The notes below the pieces were generated by a model that worked only from the letters and a program-made list of their open reading frames with translations, had not been told where the DNA came from and searched no databases. Positions 13,179-63,308 of a DNA stretch of 64,000 bases are shown here, in pieces; positions within the stretch are counted from its first letter, which is position 1; each line of letters begins with the position of its first letter. The stretch comes from Ephemeroptericola cinctiostellae (GTDB lineage: Bacteria; Pseudomonadota; Gammaproteobacteria; Burkholderiales; Burkholderiaceae), in contig NZ_CP031124.1 of NCBI RefSeq assembly GCF_003339525.1, positions 1,364,001 through 1,428,000 on the forward strand, read 5' to 3'. The position numbers and the translations under genes were made by a program.

Positions 13179-13275
13179 CGCCTGCTCCTTCTTCTCTTTT
13201 TTAAACACCATTTTTTGGTGGTTTTTTTTGGTGGTTTTTTGTGATTTTTTGACACATTCAATCGGGATGAACATG

Positions 13276-14311: not shown

Positions 14312-14337
14312 GTCAAGTGCACATGTCAAGTGCACAT
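14312..14337. repeat. Exact 13-bp tandem duplication
   Basis: GTCAAGTGCACAT occurs twice head to tail (14312-14324 and 14325-14337), immediately before the ribH terminator. It lies between nagR and ribH and interrupts no gene. It is a second short tandem duplication in this window besides the one in cas9. Confidence 0.8.
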
Positions 14338-14887: not shown

Positions 14888-14961
14888 GGTCATCCTTTGA
14901 TGGCGATTAACAAGAATCAGGGCGCGCGAAAAAGCCACCAAGTGAATGGTGTTGATGCTCA

Positions 14962-15099
14962 ATCTCTTTTATCCGGACTTTAACCGTCGGCTCTGGATTT
15001 GAACCAGATCTGCTGACCTCATGCGTGGCATGAGCGCTCGCGGGCTTCTGTGTGAACAGTTACCGCCGGTGGGGAGTTTCACCCCGCCCTGAGAATGGT
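14962..15099 (-). promoter_or_regulatory. FMN riboswitch (RFN element) upstream of ribH
   Basis: Read on the minus strand, the element begins near 15090 with AGGGCGGGGTGAAACTCCCC, continues ACCGGCGGTAA, AGCCCGCGAGC, GGTCAGCAGATCTGGT, CCAGAGCCGACGGTTAAAGT and ends CCGGATAAAAGAGA near 14962. These are the conserved blocks of the six-helix RFN fold that binds flavin mononucleotide. It ends about 75 bases before the ribH ATG. No separate terminator hairpin with a T-run is seen between aptamer and gene, so control is more likely at translation initiation. Confidence 0.95.
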
Positions 15100-15355
15100 G
15101 CTGAACAATTGGGTTCAGCGGTGTCATTGTAAACGGGATTGGACTTTGCTGCTGAGGTGGTTGAGAGGTGTTGTCGTCATTGGTTTGTGAATATAAATGA
15201 CCGAAATAGAGCCATTTACAGTCATTTTCATGGACTATGGCGTGGTCGCAGGCTCATTGCCAGTCCTGTCGTGTATCATGATGACCGATGTGTGTGGTGT
15301 TACAGATTGACCCCACACCGTGATGAATTTTTTATTTTTATGATATTGATTGTTT

Positions 15356-30599: not shown

Positions 30600-30888
30600 C
30601 ACACACCTCAATTCTGGGCGGTTTTGATTGCGGTGTGAATACCCTACGGAGGTGGGTTAAAAATAGCTCACACAATGAAAAAGCGTTATGCACATATTTG
30701 ATTTTTTTGGTTTTTTAACCATTTTTTTAACCATGACGTTAGTCATGATCCATGGTGTGCTTTGTGTCTTTAGACTTATATTAGTCTTTTTGCAATCAAA
30801 AAACAATGTAAAGATTGTGAATTTTTATTAAAAATAAAGCGTTTTTGTGTTGTTTTCTCCCGTTAATGGTTACAGCCAATGGTTGCAG
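30600..30888 (-). promoter_or_regulatory. Upstream region of the lipid-like operon
   Basis: This AT-rich 289-bp gap has no gene. Two inverted repeats suggest regulator sites: CATGAC-GTTA-GTCATG at 30732-30747 and AGACT-TATATT-AGTCT at 30772-30787. Promoter hexamers were not clear. The first palindrome lies about 135 bp upstream of the hydrolase start. Confidence 0.4.
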
Positions 30889-43888: not shown

Positions 43889-44631
43889 GGGTCTTAGGAA
43901 GCAGAATTCAATAACGGCTCATCTCGCAGCATGTTAAGAAGCACTTTATACAAGTCGCTTTTGCGATGGTTAAACCTAAATTCAGTTTCCTTCAAATGCA
44001 GTAAAAATGTGTTTTTCGGAACGCCGTTAAACTGAACCAAACGACGTTTAGCATAGCTCCAGAATGATTCTATCCCATTCACATGATTAGAACCATTTAC
44101 AAACTCATCGGCACCATGATTCACCCGGAAGTGTTTATCAAACCCGATGTCCACCAAGCCATTATAGCCGCGCCAACCATCGGTATGGATAACGCTGTTA
44201 ATGTCTGCTTTCCCACGAATAATGGCTTGCAGGCTGGCTTTGGAAGCATCAGGCACAATCTCAGTGTAGATATTGCCATCACGTTTGAGTAAACCAAACA
44301 CGATGGTTTTACCTGAAGCACCACGTCCGCGTTTACCTCGAACACGATGCGGACCAAAATATGATTCGTCGGCTTCCAACTCTCCTTTGAGTGGTGAGCC
44401 TTGGAGACAAACAATCACCAAACGACGACGAATCTTGAGGTAAATGGTGTTGATTGAACGAACGGATATGCCGCTTAACGCAGCACATTCCGTTGCCGTT
44501 AAATCAAGGGCAAAATACCGTAAAATTTGGCGAAACTTCGCTTCGCTAATTTTTGAATGTTTGAAGTACTTGTTTTTCATTTGGTCTCAAGAGCTTAGCG
44601 CATATTTTAATGCGTTTGCTTCCTAAGACCC
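43889..44631. mobile_element. IS1595-family insertion sequence (IS1016-like)
   Basis: 743-bp element bounded by 15-bp perfect inverted repeats: GGGTCTTAGGAAGCA (43889-43903) and its complement (44617-44631). TTTATTA abuts both ends (43882-43888 and 44632-44638), consistent with a target duplication of 7 bp or an imperfect 8. It lies between the acnA promoter side and the lytic transglycosylase gene, in an AT-rich gap, and damages no gene. Confidence 0.9.
43894..44580 (-). CDS. IS1595-family transposase
   Basis: The 228-residue DDE transposase begins MKNKYFKHSKISEAKFRQILRYFALD with a helix-turn-helix (TATECAALSGISVRSINTIYLKIRRRL). It has the acidic residues in ELEADESYFG, HTDGWRGYNGL and HVNGIESFWSYAKRRL, the ISXO2/IS1016 type. 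The frame is complete, so the element could be active. The stop falls inside the left inverted repeat. It catalyses cut and join of the element ends. Confidence 0.92.
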   Translation of the reverse strand: MKNKYFKHSKISEAKFRQILRYFALDLTATECAALSGISVRSINTIYLKIRRRLVIVCLQGSPLKGELEADESYFGPHRVRGKRGRGASGKTIVFGLLKRDGNIYTEIVPDASKASLQAIIRGKADINSVIHTDGWRGYNGLVDIGFDKHFRVNHGADEFVNGSNHVNGIESFWSYAKRRLVQFNGVPKNTFLLHLKETEFRFNHRKSDLYKVLLNMLRDEPLLNSAS

Positions 44632-48033: not shown

Positions 48034-48560
48034 TTGGCAATCGAGACTGCTTTTATATTCCCTATTTTTATTATGGTTTTTATCTGGACGTTTATCAAAT
48101 TGTGAATGTAGAATGTGTTTTCACTTTCTTTAATGGAGGGTTAAATGAAACAATATGTTTTGGGTTTGGATTTGGGTACCAGTTCTGTGGGGGCGGTTGC
48201 AATACAATTAAAATCCTTTGATAATCCATCTGATGATAATGCCATCCCAGTGAGCATCATTGATCACCATGTTTACTTATTTAAGGAGCCTGTTGTCAAT
48301 GAGCAAGGCACTTTGGTATCGAAGAAAAAATCTCGTCGCGAGAGTCGACAAGCCAGTAAACAACGGGATCGTCGCCAAGGTCGATTAAAAGATTTGGGAG
48401 TACTTTGCGATAAGTATCTAAACAATGCAGAGCAAATCTTGATTTTTCATGATGATGCATTTGTGCCTGCATTGAAGCAGTTTCAAACTTTGGCTTTACG
48501 TGCGCGTGCTGCGACGCATCCTGTTCAATTAAAAGATTTAGCTGCCATCATTATTCATTT

Positions 48561-48592
48561 GTCTAAAGGGCGTGGTGTCTAAAGGGCGTGGT
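48561..48592. repeat. Exact 16-bp tandem duplication inside cas9
   Basis: GTCTAAAGGGCGTGGT occurs twice in a row (48561-48576 and 48577-48592). Removing one copy joins HLSKGRG to YSSGFKSLS in one frame. With two copies the frame stops at TAA 48580-48582. The duplication places AAAGGG just before GTG codons at 48572 and 48575, close to the stop, so re-initiation is conceivable. Confidence 0.95.
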
Positions 48593-50985
48593 TACTCATC
48601 TGGATTTAAATCTTTATCTAGAAAACAAGAAGAAAAATTAAAATCAAGTTCAACTTTTGATGAGCAAGTCAAGTTATTCACTGGGGATGTTCAGCCAGGT
48701 CACCATCGCTTGAGCCACATCATGCAACTGCGTGAAACAGCGACCATTGGGCAATACATGCTGGATCGTGCCATCCGTGGCTTACCCAGCATTCTAAAAG
48801 CAGGTACAGATCGAACGTACGTTACCGATGCATGCGAAGCCATTGATGATGAAGTCGAAATACAGGTGGATAAGAAGACAGGCGAAATCATTAAAAAAAC
48901 TTTTTACAATTTATACGCCTTACGTGATGAACTTAAAGCCGAATTTGACTTGATTTGGAAGACACAGACTGAACACCATCCAGAACTGAATCAATTTGCG
49001 GGAGGCCAGCTCAAACAGAGATTCATGGATGTGCTGTTCTATCAGCGACCATTGAAGTCGGTTGCGCCCATGGTAGGTGGTTGTTTACTTGAAAGAAACT
49101 TACCGAGGGCACCACGCGTTCATCCTGCATTTCAAACATTTCGTATAGAAAAAACGCTGGCTGATCTGCGCTGGGGGTATGGTCGTCATGCCAAGCATTT
49201 AAGTGATGCTGAGTTGAATGCCATTCGCCAAGCTTTGCATGATCCCATTCAGTTGGACATTGATGGTGAGTTGAGTTTTGCAAAGATTTATAAATTTTTA
49301 GCACCTTTCCGTGAAGCGGGTTCACCTGAAAATTTAAACTTAGGCAGCGGTGGGCGAGATGGCTTGTTAGGCAATGTCACTCATAAACGCTGGCATGGTT
49401 TGGGTTTGTATGATGCTTGGCAAGATTTACTTAGAGCTCAGGAGGGGGATAAGCACCATGTCAATCGTCAAAACTGGGTGATTTCATTTTTGAGTGATTT
49501 GGGCTCAGTCGAATCACTGTACCCAGACAATTGGTTTGAGCACTTTTATTTACCTGACTTGCCCACAAAAAGTGGCCAACCAGCCCGTCAAAAGGCTCAA
49601 GCCGCCATGTTCAAAGATCCACGTTTCATCGAATTCATTGACATGTTTCGCAAACATGAAAAATGTGATCGTTTAAGTAGTTTGCGATTCGACAGTGGTC
49701 GGGCATCCTACAGTGTGAAAGCGTTAAAAAAAATAAATGTTTGGCTTAAAGAAAGTGTTCAGTTCTCGGAGGGGCATATTGATGAGCACAGCGCGATCAA
49801 AGACCTGTATAAACAAGAACAGGCAAATGCATTGGTGATCCTCGATGTGCTTGATAATCCTGTTAAAACAGGCAATGGCATCGTGGATGTGGCGCTCATG
49901 CAGGTAAAGAAAGTGGTGAATGCTTTTATCATCAAGCATGGTAAGCCAACGCGCATTGTGGTCGAGATGGCACGGGAAATGAGTCAAGGGATTTCGGGAC
50001 GAAACGACATTCAAAAAAGTCAAAATCAAAATAAAACCATCAATAAAAAAGCAGCACAAAATATGGTTGAATATAAAGTTCCATACTCAAAAACCAATGT
50101 ACTCAAATATCGTCTGGCACAAGACCAAGGTTACGATTGTCCCTATTGTGGAAAGAACATGGGTGTGATGGAAATCTATGATGGCAGTGCCACCAATATT
50201 GAACACATCATCCCGCAATCTCTGACCCAGGTGGGACGCAAATATTCAGAAATCGTATTGGCACATCGTCATTGCAATGATAAAAAAGGCAAACGTGTAC
50301 CTATGGAAGCCTTTGCATTCAATACAGGCCCCATAGAAAAATTGGTAATGCGACTGCGGGAATTGAAACAAGACCGTAAAGCCATGTTGCTGGAACTACC
50401 CGAAACCCCAAGCAACGCCATTGATGATGCGATCCTCGATGAGTTTTGTGACCGTCAATTCAATGAAACTGCGTGGATCACCAAAATCACCGCCACATGG
50501 TTGCGCAGCTTGGGTGTGAATGTGGAGTGTACCAAAGGGCAGATGACCGCTCAATTGCGTGGGCAATGGCAGCTCGAAAGCGTGATTCCAGAAGTTCGCA
50601 TCATTGAAGGCTTACCCGTATACAGCAGCCATGATGAAAAAGGCGAGATTAAAGAAGCAATTGTCCCCGCTAAAGCCATGTTTTATGATGAAGCAGGCAA
50701 AGAATCCACCTTGCTGTGGCGCTACTGGAACAAGCAACGGCTGACCCCAGATGAATTTGCTGAACTGCGTCAAACGGGTTTATACCTTCTTGAAAAACGT
50801 TGTGATCATCGCCATCACCTGATCGATGCCATCGTCACCGCCTTGTGCAATCGCAGTATGGTCAAACGAATGGCAGATGAATATAAAAAACGCTGTGAAG
50901 AGGAAGCAAAAAAACCATTGGAAATACAGAAAAAAATCCGCTTTGGACGTCGAGAAGAGCCGATGGCACGCCTGCGTGATCAAGT

Positions 50986-51017
50986 TGTGTCAGCTGTCAA
51001 GTACAACAGCTGACACA
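50986..51017. repeat. Perfect 12-bp inverted repeat at the second cas9 frameshift
   Basis: TGTGTCAGCTGT (50986-50997) and ACAGCTGACACA (51006-51017) with an 8-base loop. The reading frame must change inside 50980-51013, bounded by a TGA in each frame, so the shift lies in this hairpin. A quasi-palindrome perfected by template switching is a plausible cause. Confidence 0.85.
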
Positions 51018-51760
51018 TCGACCTGACCGTAAAGGAGGGGGTGCATGGTTTCAAGAAATGGCTTACGGTTTATATATTGATGACATGAGGCAAGCGCACT
51101 TGACCCGCCGTTATCCCGTGCGGGAGCTGATAGGCAAAGACGATGCCGCAACCAATGGCAACATTGAAGGCATTGCTGGCATCGAAATTAAAAAAGCACT
51201 ACGTGAAAGCCATGCCGATTTTTGTCAGAAACATTGGGGAAGCAGCAGCCCAAGCAAAGAAGAATACGCCAAAATCACAGAACATTTGTGGCTTATACCA
51301 CCCGCACATCCCCGCACTGGACAGCCCATTGTGAAGGTTCGTCAAATAAAAGCACTTTACTTGGCGAGTAAGCACATCAAAATAAGGCACTCAAATAAAC
51401 AAGGAGTACAACTGAGCAAATATTTGATTTGTGATGAGAATGCTTATATTGCATGGAATCCCAATAACCCAGTCGATGGCTTTAAAGTGGTGAACAGCTA
51501 TGGTGCCAGGGAAGGGAAAAAAATACCAGAAGGATGGATGCGGGTCTTTAAGGGGGATACTGTTTTAGCAAAAAATGGCCTTTCATATGTAGTGGTCAGT
51601 TTGAATGAAGCTGCAAATAGAGTCGAGTCAATGCAAAAGGTTTGTGCGATTTCTTCCTTAAAACAAGAGGAGGGCCGTCAAAATTTCTTACTCACTTTAC
51701 CTAAAAGAGCTGGGAGTGTCAGTCTTTGGGATATTGTTGAAATCATAGAGGATCCATTCC

Positions 51761-52705
51761 ATGGCAGACCAACGCGTCTTAATGATTGAAAGCCCCTGCC
51801 ACATCAGTGTGGATACAGGGCGAATTGTTTTTAGAAAAATTGATGGTGCACAACGTATGGAACTGGCAAGTGACTTGGCTGTCCTGTGCTTACACCATGA
51901 GCAGATCACCATCAGCCACCACGCCTTACGTGTGCTTGGACAGTCAGATTGTGCGGTCATCATCACTGATGGACAACACATGCCAAGTGCTGTGTTACAC
52001 CCTCTAAGTCAGCAAGCCAGCAGTGTGGCGAATACCCGATTGATGCAACAGATTGCATTGCTGCAACACAAGGGACGTCAAGCACTGATTTGGCAACAAC
52101 TTGTTACTGCAAAAGTACACAATGGTGGCGCAGTGCTGCGTCAACTTGGGCTCAATGGAGCTGTGCGCATGGAGCGTTTGGCTCAACAAGTACAACCTGA
52201 TGACGCGACACACATCGAAGGGCAAGCCGCAAAACATTTTTGGCAATGCTGGTTCACCCACCCTAGATTGGCTGAACACGGTCAGAAACGCCAAAAGCAA
52301 GATGCAACTGACCCAGTCAATGCACGACTGAATTATGCTTACGCCATGCTAAGGACCAGCATCGCACGTGAGTTGATTGCCTCTGGGCTTAACCCAAGCT
52401 TAGGGGTAGGACATCACAACCAAGGCAATCCATTCAACTTAGCCGATGATTTTATTGAGCCCTATCGCTGTATCGCTGAATGGGCTGTGGCACAATTGAC
52501 AGACATTGATCAACCCTTTACAGGAAACGCCAAACAAAACCTACTCAAAGCACTGTGGTGTGATTTGATTTTGACCCATGACGATAACAACCGTTATCGG
52601 CTTGCCCAAGCCATCACACAAACGGTGCGCAGCTACTGTCAAGTGCTTGAAATGACGCAACACGCCGTCAAACTCAAGCTCCCTAAAGATTGGTTTACAT
52701 CATGA
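51761..52705 (+). CDS. cas1: CRISPR integrase Cas1, type II
   Basis: The 314-residue protein starts MADQRVLMIESPCHISVDTGRIVFRK and holds the metal-site residues in HIEGQAAKHFW (Glu), GVGHHNQGNPFNLADDFIEPYR (His and Asp/Glu). With Cas2 it inserts new spacers at the array end. GAGG lies 8 bases before the ATG. It overlaps cas9 by 29 bases and cas2 by four. No lesion is seen. In intact type II-C systems it works with Cas9 for PAM choice. Confidence 0.95.
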   Translation: MADQRVLMIESPCHISVDTGRIVFRKIDGAQRMELASDLAVLCLHHEQITISHHALRVLGQSDCAVIITDGQHMPSAVLHPLSQQASSVANTRLMQQIALLQHKGRQALIWQQLVTAKVHNGGAVLRQLGLNGAVRMERLAQQVQPDDATHIEGQAAKHFWQCWFTHPRLAEHGQKRQKQDATDPVNARLNYAYAMLRTSIARELIASGLNPSLGVGHHNQGNPFNLADDFIEPYRCIAEWAVAQLTDIDQPFTGNAKQNLLKALWCDLILTHDDNNRYRLAQAITQTVRSYCQVLEMTQHAVKLKLPKDWFTS

Positions 52706-53046
52706 CTGTGAGCCGAATGAGAAATGGATGGCGCATCGTGTGGTGTCTAGCCGTATATGATTGTCCAATGACTGAACGCGAAGAGCGTCGTGATTACACT
52801 TTGTTTAGAAAGAAACTATTGCAAGAAAATTTTTTACAGCTGCAGTATTCGCTGTATGTCAAACATTACCCGACGTATGCCCAAGCGAATGCGGTCATTG
52901 AGCGCCTGCGTTCAAACATCCCAGCAGGTGCATCGGTTGCATTCTTTTTTGTAACAGATAAACAATGGGCCATGACAGAAGAGTTTTATGGCACCAAAAA
53001 GACCAAGCAAAAGCCTGATGAATATGAACAAATTGACTTGTTTTAG
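52702..53046 (+). CDS. cas2: CRISPR-associated Cas2
   Basis: The protein is 114 residues long from ATG 52702, which shares ATGA with the cas1 stop; a TTG at 52690 is in frame too. The ferredoxin-like fold is shown by IVWCLAVYDCPMTEREERRDYTLFRKKLL with the metal Asp, QLQYSLYVKHY and SVAFFFVTDKQW. It bridges Cas1 dimers in the integration complex. It is followed after 51 bp by the array. Confidence 0.95.
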   Translation: MTVSRMRNGWRIVWCLAVYDCPMTEREERRDYTLFRKKLLQENFLQLQYSLYVKHYPTYAQANAVIERLRSNIPAGASVAFFFVTDKQWAMTEEFYGTKKTKQKPDEYEQIDLF

Positions 53047-53097: not shown

Positions 53098-54124
53098 ATT
53101 GTAGCAAACACTTCATCGGTGGGGGACTGAAACACAAAAACACCTGTTGCATTGATGACCACGATTGTAGCAAACACTTCATCGGTGGGGGACTGAAACT
53201 GCGGACTTTAGCCATGAGGGCCACCCGTCATTGTAGCAAACACTTCATCGGTGGGGGACTGAAACTGCGATTGTGGTCATGGTGTGTCCTTAAGCATTGT
53301 AGCAAACACTTCATCGGTGGGGGACTGAAACTGTACTGCTTGTCAAAATATTTTTTGCTTTATTGTAGCAAACACTTCATCGGTGGGGGACTGAAACGAA
53401 CAGGCGCTACAGGACTGCCCACATTTTATTGTAGCAAACACTTCATCGGTGGGGGACTGAAACCGGCAAATACTCCATCAGGCCGTGTCGCAAAATTGTA
53501 GCAAACACTTCATCGGTGGGGGACTGAAACACTCCTTGACTTTGCCCCGTCACGCATCAAATTGTAGCAAACACTTCATCGGTGGGGGACTGAAACCGTT
53601 GTAACCATTCAACGCCAACAACGGGTATTGTAGCAAACACTTCATCGGTGGGGGACTGAAACTGCCGAGAACATGCCGCCCAAGACACCAGAATTGTAGC
53701 AAACACTTCATCGGTGGGGGACTGAAACACCGCCCGCAATCGAGATGCCTGTGCCTGCATTGTAGCAAACACTTCATCGGTGGGGGACTGAAACAGACCT
53801 GATACGTGGAGGCGGCGTGCGTTTATTGTAGCAAACACTTCATCGGTGGGGGACTGAAACACTATGATATACATTCTTTTTCAATCATCGATTGTAGCAA
53901 ACACTTCATCGGTGGGGGACTGAAACAACGACGGCGACGTCAACAAACACTGTCACATTGTAGCAAACACTTCATCGGTGGGGGACTGAAACCGAATTTA
54001 GGACATGACATCATGGAAGGGCATTGTAGCAAACACTTCATCGGTGGGGGACTGAAACTGTAAAAAGGCGTTACATTTAAGTGTTGCGATTGTAGCAAAC
54101 ACTCCATCGGTGGCGGATTCCTAC
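53098..54124 (-). CRISPR. Type II-C CRISPR array, 16 repeats and 15 spacers
   Basis: Repeats of 36 bp start at 53098 and recur every 66 bp; the plus-strand unit begins ATTGTAGCAAACACTTCATC and ends GGGGGACTGAAAC. Fifteen copies are identical; the last (54089-54124) differs at the crRNA 5' side. Spacers are 30 nt except one of 31 nt (53464-53494). In the minus-strand reading repeats run GTTTCAG..GCTACAAT, the usual crRNA sense, and each ends in the extended -10 box TGCTACAAT, so each spacer can be transcribed from its own promoter, as known for Neisseria II-C. No spacer match within the window was noticed. Confidence 0.98.
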
Positions 54125-54181: not shown

Positions 54182-54210
54182 AAAAAACCAGACGCGAAGT
54201 CTGGTTTTTT
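54182..54210. terminator. Terminator of tracrRNA
   Basis: CCAGAC (54188-54193), loop GCGAA, GTCTGG (54199-54204) with six A before and six T after; symmetrical, and ending the tracrRNA on the minus strand. Confidence 0.9.
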
Positions 54211-54278
54211 GTTTGGTGGCTACGTTTTACCGAAGCCTTGTTTTCAGCGGCCCCCGCCGATGAAGTGCTTGCTACAGC
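54182..54278 (-). ncRNA. Predicted tracrRNA
   Basis: The anti-repeat (complement of about 54242-54278) reads GCTGTAGCAAGCACTTCATCGGCGGGGGCCGCTGAAAAC and would pair with the crRNA repeat: 11 bp CACUUCAUCGG/CCGAUGAAGUG, a mismatch, GGGGG/CCCCC, a bulge, CUG/CAG. The tail AAGGCTTCGG..AGCC forms a nexus-like stem, and a CCAGAC/GTCTGG hairpin with six U ends it. Length about 97 nt. It has its own promoter (54285-54313) and is transcribed toward the array. It should guide crRNA processing by RNase III and binding to Cas9. Confidence 0.85.
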
Positions 54279-54284
54279 GGCTCA

Positions 54285-63094: not shown

Positions 63095-63308
63095 ATGCAT
63101 GTGCATGCGTCAATAGCCCACATGTGAGCGGTGAATGACCTTATAACTGGATGGTTTATTGCACAGTAAATAGAAGCTTGTTGTTTATTTGTGTTGTTTA
63201 TTTGTTGTTGTTCGTTTATTTAAGACAAGAGGTTTTGAGTGGGTGGGTTCACACAAAATCTAGAAAAATGATTCCCAAAAAACCTTGGGCGAGTGCATAT
63301 TTAATCGC

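Follow-up and report, generated by a model that had tools for sequence, protein, structure and literature searches.

The type II-C CRISPR-Cas locus described here was, on a reading to which we give a probability of about one half, gained in the lineage of Ephemeroptericola cinctiostellae and has since lost interference, perhaps in escaping autoimmunity. It lies in a window of 64,000 nucleotides (the whole stretch of DNA analysed, G000:C1:1364001-1428000) from a genome, G000, that is a single contig of 2.72 Mb rated 100% complete. Its cas9 gene is best read as a young pseudogene with two small lesions, one of them a 16-bp tandem duplication, and a full-length working Cas9 is very probably not made by this locus. 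Beside the broken gene, cas1, cas2, the repeat array (array A) and a predicted tracrRNA region have been kept, all of them open or intact. That autoimmunity was the cause of the cas9 loss is slightly short of an even bet, and a single genome does not reveal the order of events. In place of one intact Cas9 with RuvC and HNH, the gene reads in three frames of 145, 813 and 243 aa, laid out as follows in positions of the window, with the intact cas9 of a relative (G026) for comparison:

48145..48582, plus strand: cas9 piece 1, 145 aa, covering positions 1-122 of the TIGR01865 profile and ending at a TAA in the second repeat copy
48561..48576, plus strand: first copy of the 16-bp tandem duplication, an exact repeat found by Tandem Repeats Finder
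48577..48592, plus strand: second copy of the duplication, which holds the new TAA at 48580-48582
48572..51013, plus strand: cas9 piece 2, 813 aa, with helical lobe, HNH and RuvC-III, 68% identical to G026
50986..51017, no strand assigned: the other frame break of cas9, at an 8-nt loop between perfect 12-bp inverted-repeat arms; the window is one base short here relative to G026
51058..51789, plus strand: cas9 piece 3, 243 aa, the C-terminal region, aligned to residues 981-1225 of G026

At the first break, GTCTAAAGGGCGTGGT stands twice head to tail, exactly, at 48561-48576 and then 48577-48592, and was reported by Tandem Repeats Finder as 48560-48592 with period 16, 2.1 copies and a 100% match. 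The earlier note's description of an exact 16-bp duplication within cas9 is therefore confirmed, as is its claim that the duplication breaks the gene: the frame from 48145 stops after 145 codons at TAA 48580-48582 and the next frame, 48572-51013, has 813 codons, whereas G026, the only close relative found, has one copy and one continuous frame, its cas9 reading through HLSKGRGYSSGFK at this site without a break. Slippage is a plausible origin of the duplication. Outside the CRISPR array, the window holds five exact tandem duplications with a unit of at least 12 bp, against none in each of 20 dinucleotide-preserving shuffles; it is thus richer in them than expected by chance, and short duplications seem to arise readily in this part of the genome. 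The duplication in cas9 is the longest of the five, and no other lies deep inside a gene. The other four (units of 12-13 bp) lie at 13211-13240, 14312-14337, 30711-30734 and 63179-63205; three of these fall between predicted ORFs of at least 90 aa, and the one at 13211 is within the opening codons of a predicted ORF.

The second break, about 2.4 kb downstream of the duplication, was missing from the earlier note. Piece 2 terminates here at TGA 51011-51013, and some 258 C-terminal codons of cas9 follow in another frame, the open stretch from 51013 aligning to residues 965-1225 of the G026 protein. The segment 50980-51030 folds at -21 kcal/mol (z -3.9), and the inverted repeat is absent from G026. 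Both features, the perfect repeat and the slip, would follow from a template switch at a quasi-palindrome. We also considered whether the inverted repeat directs a programmed frameshift, and rejected this because the G026 frame is continuous without it.

These two breaks bear on three further readings of the gene. The earlier note had proposed that the duplication could be reversible, so that Cas9 is switched off by it and on again once one copy is precisely lost; the duplication is indeed exact and sits in an otherwise well-kept gene, and a frame-shifting tandem duplication is a trait shared with phase-variable genes that carry tandem repeats. However, because the second break persists, losing one 16-bp copy leaves a Cas9 without its C-terminal part, and useful reversibility is not supported. 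The tandem repeat alone does not decide between on and off, and with two copies only, short of the repeat tracts usual in phase-variable genes, and another, unrelated break elsewhere in cas9, such a switch is highly improbable. In the one genome of this species that was compared, there was no one-copy allele. Similarly improbable is a split Cas9, its pieces made separately through re-initiation and then reassembling. The GTG codons at 48572 and 48575 do lie just ahead of the TAA in the frame of piece 2, but AAAGGG precedes them by only 1 and 4 nt; the first ATG, GTG or TTG of piece 3, at 51058, comes about 45 nt after the TGA and would call for a separate start; and the G026 relative is in one piece. 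The two-part protein that the earlier note found conceivable is disfavoured by the same spacing and by the need for three pieces. A further GTG at 48588, in the second copy, is in a different frame, which a stop closes after 17 codons. That either break, or both, arose in assembly or sequencing was also weighed and is very doubtful. The second break falls in a perfect 12-bp hairpin, where reads can fail, and could be a sequencing error, but an exact 16-bp duplication is not a usual read error and the genome is one complete contig. Moreover, six genes near the locus are unbroken in comparison with the sister species G005 (92-98% identity, one frame, full or nearly full length, with leuS cut by a contig end in G005), which argues against a generally indel-ridden assembly.

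The cas9 pieces were searched separately, as they stand, and the DNA of the locus was also used as one query. Piece 1 by itself scored 66 bits against TIGR01865, under the cut-off of 100, and its residues 3-144 matched residues 8-130 of the Cas9 chain 8hnt_A; we take it to be the RuvC-I and bridge-helix region. Piece 2 scored 276 bits, above the same cut-off. For piece 3, neither Pfam nor NCBIfam gave a family at E 0.001, nor did the PDB give a Cas9 chain at E 1; by its position the piece is presumably the WED/PAM-interacting end. Identity to G026 is 54, 68 and 57% for pieces 1, 2 and 3, 65% for cas1 and 81% for cas2. Between the cas9 pieces and G026, pN is 0.21-0.33 and pS 0.70-0.76, and much the same holds for cas1 and cas2; across the pieces, cas1 and cas2 together, replacement differences amount to 0.12-0.33 per site while silent differences, at 0.70-0.76, are near saturation. 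Because replacement differences are far rarer than silent ones, most of the divergence of cas9 appears to have accrued under constraint, and the breaks look recent.

Among 398 family genomes, piece 2 found matches in 21 at E <= 0.001, its own genome included. G026 is the only close relative, with a continuous cas9 of 1225 aa followed by cas1, cas2 and a 63-repeat array whose last repeat is degenerate. G024, G149 and G246 gave distant Cas9 matches (27-34% identity), and the other 16 genomes gave short matches, mostly over the HNH part. Within the six genomes of the genus, piece 2 was matched in its own genome only and in none of the five others. In searches of genome contigs, a single sequence found no match and a two-row alignment found one locus, on a contig as long as the one in G026; viral contigs yielded neither a cas9 relative nor the exact two-copy sequence, and a plasmid search returned 54 records, every one below 60% identity.

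The remainder of the locus comprises the following features:

51761..52705, plus strand: cas1, type II, 314 aa, open; 197 bits to TIGR03639 (cut-off 120)
52690..53046, plus strand: cas2, 118 aa, open; 37 bits to TIGR01573 (cut-off 24.5)
53098..54124, minus strand: CRISPR array A, with 15 identical 36-nt repeats, a degenerate end repeat (6 mismatches) and 15 spacers
53134..53163, minus strand: spacer A0, which adjoins cas2; 30/30 in the genome's own glpD-like gene, G000:C1:2090580-2090609
53200..53229, minus strand: spacer A1; 29/30 in the Mu-like prophage of this genome, G000:C1:2709869-2709898, where a Gp45-like gene ends
54186..54282, minus strand: predicted tracrRNA region of array A, with an anti-repeat at 54242-54277 and then a terminator-like hairpin

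Type II cas1 and cas2 thus stand beside cas9, each above its curated profile cut-off. As regards csn2, the gap between cas2 and the array is only 51 bp. The predicted tracrRNA carries an anti-repeat whose duplex with the array A repeat was computed at -56.1 kcal/mol, and from this anti-repeat the crRNA strand of the array would be the minus strand. Like the type II-C systems of Neisseria, Campylobacter and Riemerella, the locus has the order cas9-cas1-cas2 and apparently only three cas genes, together with 36-nt repeats, 30-nt spacers, a tracrRNA region and an array that appears to run towards cas2. The repeat ends in a -10-like TACAAT, presumably as in other type II-C repeats. Unlike in the usual type II-C locus, cas9 is here in three pieces. 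The intact Cas9 of G026 is large (1225 aa), with a best PDB sequence match of 125 bits over about 300 residues.

Two observations that belong to an escape from autoimmunity occur together in this locus, namely a broken effector gene, cas9, and self-matching spacers, A0 at 30/30 and A1 at 29/30. The target gene of A0 encodes a 531-aa glycerol-3-phosphate dehydrogenase-like protein with the Pfam domains DAO and DAO_C (best NCBIfam score 279 bits, below the cut-off of 360), and its neighbour is a gene we take to be glycerol-kinase-like. Since A0 matches its own genome at all 30 positions and the copy of the target in G005 differs at 3, the source of the spacer would be DNA of its own lineage. A0 is probably the newest spacer of array A, since in one II-C system that has been studied the newest spacers sit beside cas2, and the degenerate repeat at the opposite end agrees with this. 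According to one report, II-C arrays are hard to orient and the uptake end may vary between them (PMC12638026). The single mismatch of A1 to its own prophage is at the fourth base from the 3' end. The Mu-like prophage lies within G000:C1:2690001-2723407, with tail sheath, baseplate, integrase and repressor genes, and an IMG/VR contig (IMGVR_UViG_2848339753_000003) shares two of its proteins, at 100%, as well as the 60-mers that were sampled. This prophage is matched by spacers of array A with 1 mismatch, of array B (a second locus of the genome, described below) with 2, and of the G026 array with 4. A spacer of G026 has a 29/30 match at G000:C1:2611907-2611938, among ORFs judged by eye to be phage-like, which points to phages common to both genera.

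The flanks of the self-matches are of interest with regard to a PAM. The flank of the glpD target of A0 is GGATGACATT; the glpD-site flank GGATGA, identical in G005, does not fit the loose motif NNRWTY, nor does TCGACT, the flank of A1 in its own prophage. The flanks CAATTC, GCATTC, CTGATT and TTGATT do fit, three of them from the G026 array and one from the A1 match in G005, NNRWTY being a post hoc motif drawn from these four, partly from a Cas9 only 57-68% alike, and the sample far too small. Flanks were gathered from genomes of the genus and the family (only two candidates scored per genome), from four chosen genomes and from related viral contigs. Weak matches with 6-8 mismatches (A5, C14, C31 twice, C37, and B32 of the other locus) were left out of the comparison; of the A- and C-type flanks so left out (GCTATC, GTATTA, CTTTTG, GTTTGC and GGGCAA), 0 of 5 fit NNRWTY. 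In phage records, array A, the array of the second locus and the G026 array found no match. With only a handful of useful protospacers, no PAM is claimed. As the glpD flank falls outside NNRWTY, the self-match may be harmless or may have been acquired after the decay of Cas9.

The second type II-C locus, at G000:C1:1351074-1358325, is about 54 kb away on the opposite strand and has cas1, cas2, an open cas9 of 1033 aa and an array of 43 perfect repeats. Between its repeat and that of array A, 16 of 36 positions agree, and cross-duplexes between the two systems were computed at -20.4 and -14.3 kcal/mol, against the -56.1 kcal/mol within array A; with such weak cross-duplexes and dissimilar repeats, the second locus is unlikely to use array A guides. 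Besides its 28/30 match to the same Mu-like prophage as A1, the second locus has a spacer, B35, with a 30/30 self-match in the gap between two of the genome's own genes, which we take to be gatC- and gatA-like. Given the open cas9, this site may have no PAM, the locus may be kept silent, or an anti-CRISPR may be encoded in the genome, and the pairing of an open Cas9 with a perfect self-match is a lead for finding such an anti-CRISPR. G026 likewise has a 30/30 self-match, at G026:C31:24960-24993, despite its open cas9; the gene beside the matched one is presumably ParA-like. Of the three systems compared, two, the second locus and that of G026, thus tolerate perfect self-matches, which, like the flank of the glpD site, speaks against autoimmunity as the cause of the cas9 loss.

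In an escape from autoimmunity, spacer A0 would have been taken from the cell's own chromosome as the last or among the last acquisitions, a working Cas9 guided by A0 would then have attacked that chromosome, and cells that had lost Cas9 would have survived. The retention of guide and adaptation parts, together with a perfect self-match at the probable newest spot, fits this sequence of events. Loss of interference after uptake of host-derived spacers has been proposed for Campylobacter II-C (PMC4283603), and mutation of cas genes is described as a documented route of escape from CRISPR autoimmunity in a review covering other bacteria (PMC6990116). A real possibility, if at clearly less than even odds, is that cas9 decayed neutrally, either because the second II-C locus, with its own open cas genes and 43 repeats, made it redundant or because CRISPR imposed a cost or had no use; the glpD spacer would then be harmless without a PAM, or a later capture by Cas1-Cas2 with a PAM-blind Cas9. 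The glpD flank, outside the motif drawn from the other flanks, is in favour of such a course, as is the finding that, in a II-A system, host-derived spacers make up a larger share when Cas9 is catalytically dead (Wei 2015, as reported in PMC6990116). On the other hand, open genes and identical repeats elsewhere in the locus, together with a cas9 divergence that is mostly constrained, leave little time for neutral decay, and the presence of Cas9 was required for acquisition in a II-A study, according to the same review (PMC6990116). The more specific order of decay first and self spacer second, in which a truncated Cas9 without the PAM-reading C-terminus still served Cas1-Cas2 uptake, is unlikely; if true, it would make the locus a blind recorder that stored a piece of its own chromosome without a PAM, and array A would document II-C adaptation running uncoupled from interference.

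It is already known that cas genes can be lost where spacers match the host itself (PMC6990116). In Lactobacillus acidophilus NCFM and others treated in that review, as here, a self-matching spacer is kept beside a broken interference module (PMC6990116); by comparison, the present locus has small lesions in cas9 only and no loss of a cas cassette, and the same genome has a second CRISPR locus with an open cas9. Campylobacter jejuni has a minimal II-C system with a spacer from its own chromosome, again as here, and a phage Cas4-like protein was proposed there as the trigger (PMC4283603). Such a trigger of self-spacers was set aside for the present genome after a search with one family, Cas4 (PF01930), which found no match in it. 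Among the literature matches listed, nothing relevant concerned a cas9 broken by a tandem duplication, which is not proof of absence. What the locus offers is a readable case, with two small lesions, a self-match to a chromosomal gene at the probable newest spot and a dissimilar second II-C locus. It resembles a natural snapshot taken shortly after a CRISPR system lost interference, its guide and adaptation parts still open.

With regard to the origin of the locus, in the sister species G005 (holA 92% and proA 96% identical) 113 bp, free of cas genes, separate holA from a DUF465 gene, and the two genes are likewise adjacent in G003. From this locus-free site in G005 and the finding of Cas9 matches in none of the five other genomes of the genus, the locus was probably gained in its own lineage, loss in the other species being the alternative. 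A few kb from the CRISPR locus, at 43894-44580 on the minus strand of the window, is a transposase-like ORF of 228 aa that we take to be IS1595-like. Elsewhere in the window, at 14957-15100 on the minus strand, is an FMN riboswitch (Rfam RF00050, 111 bits).
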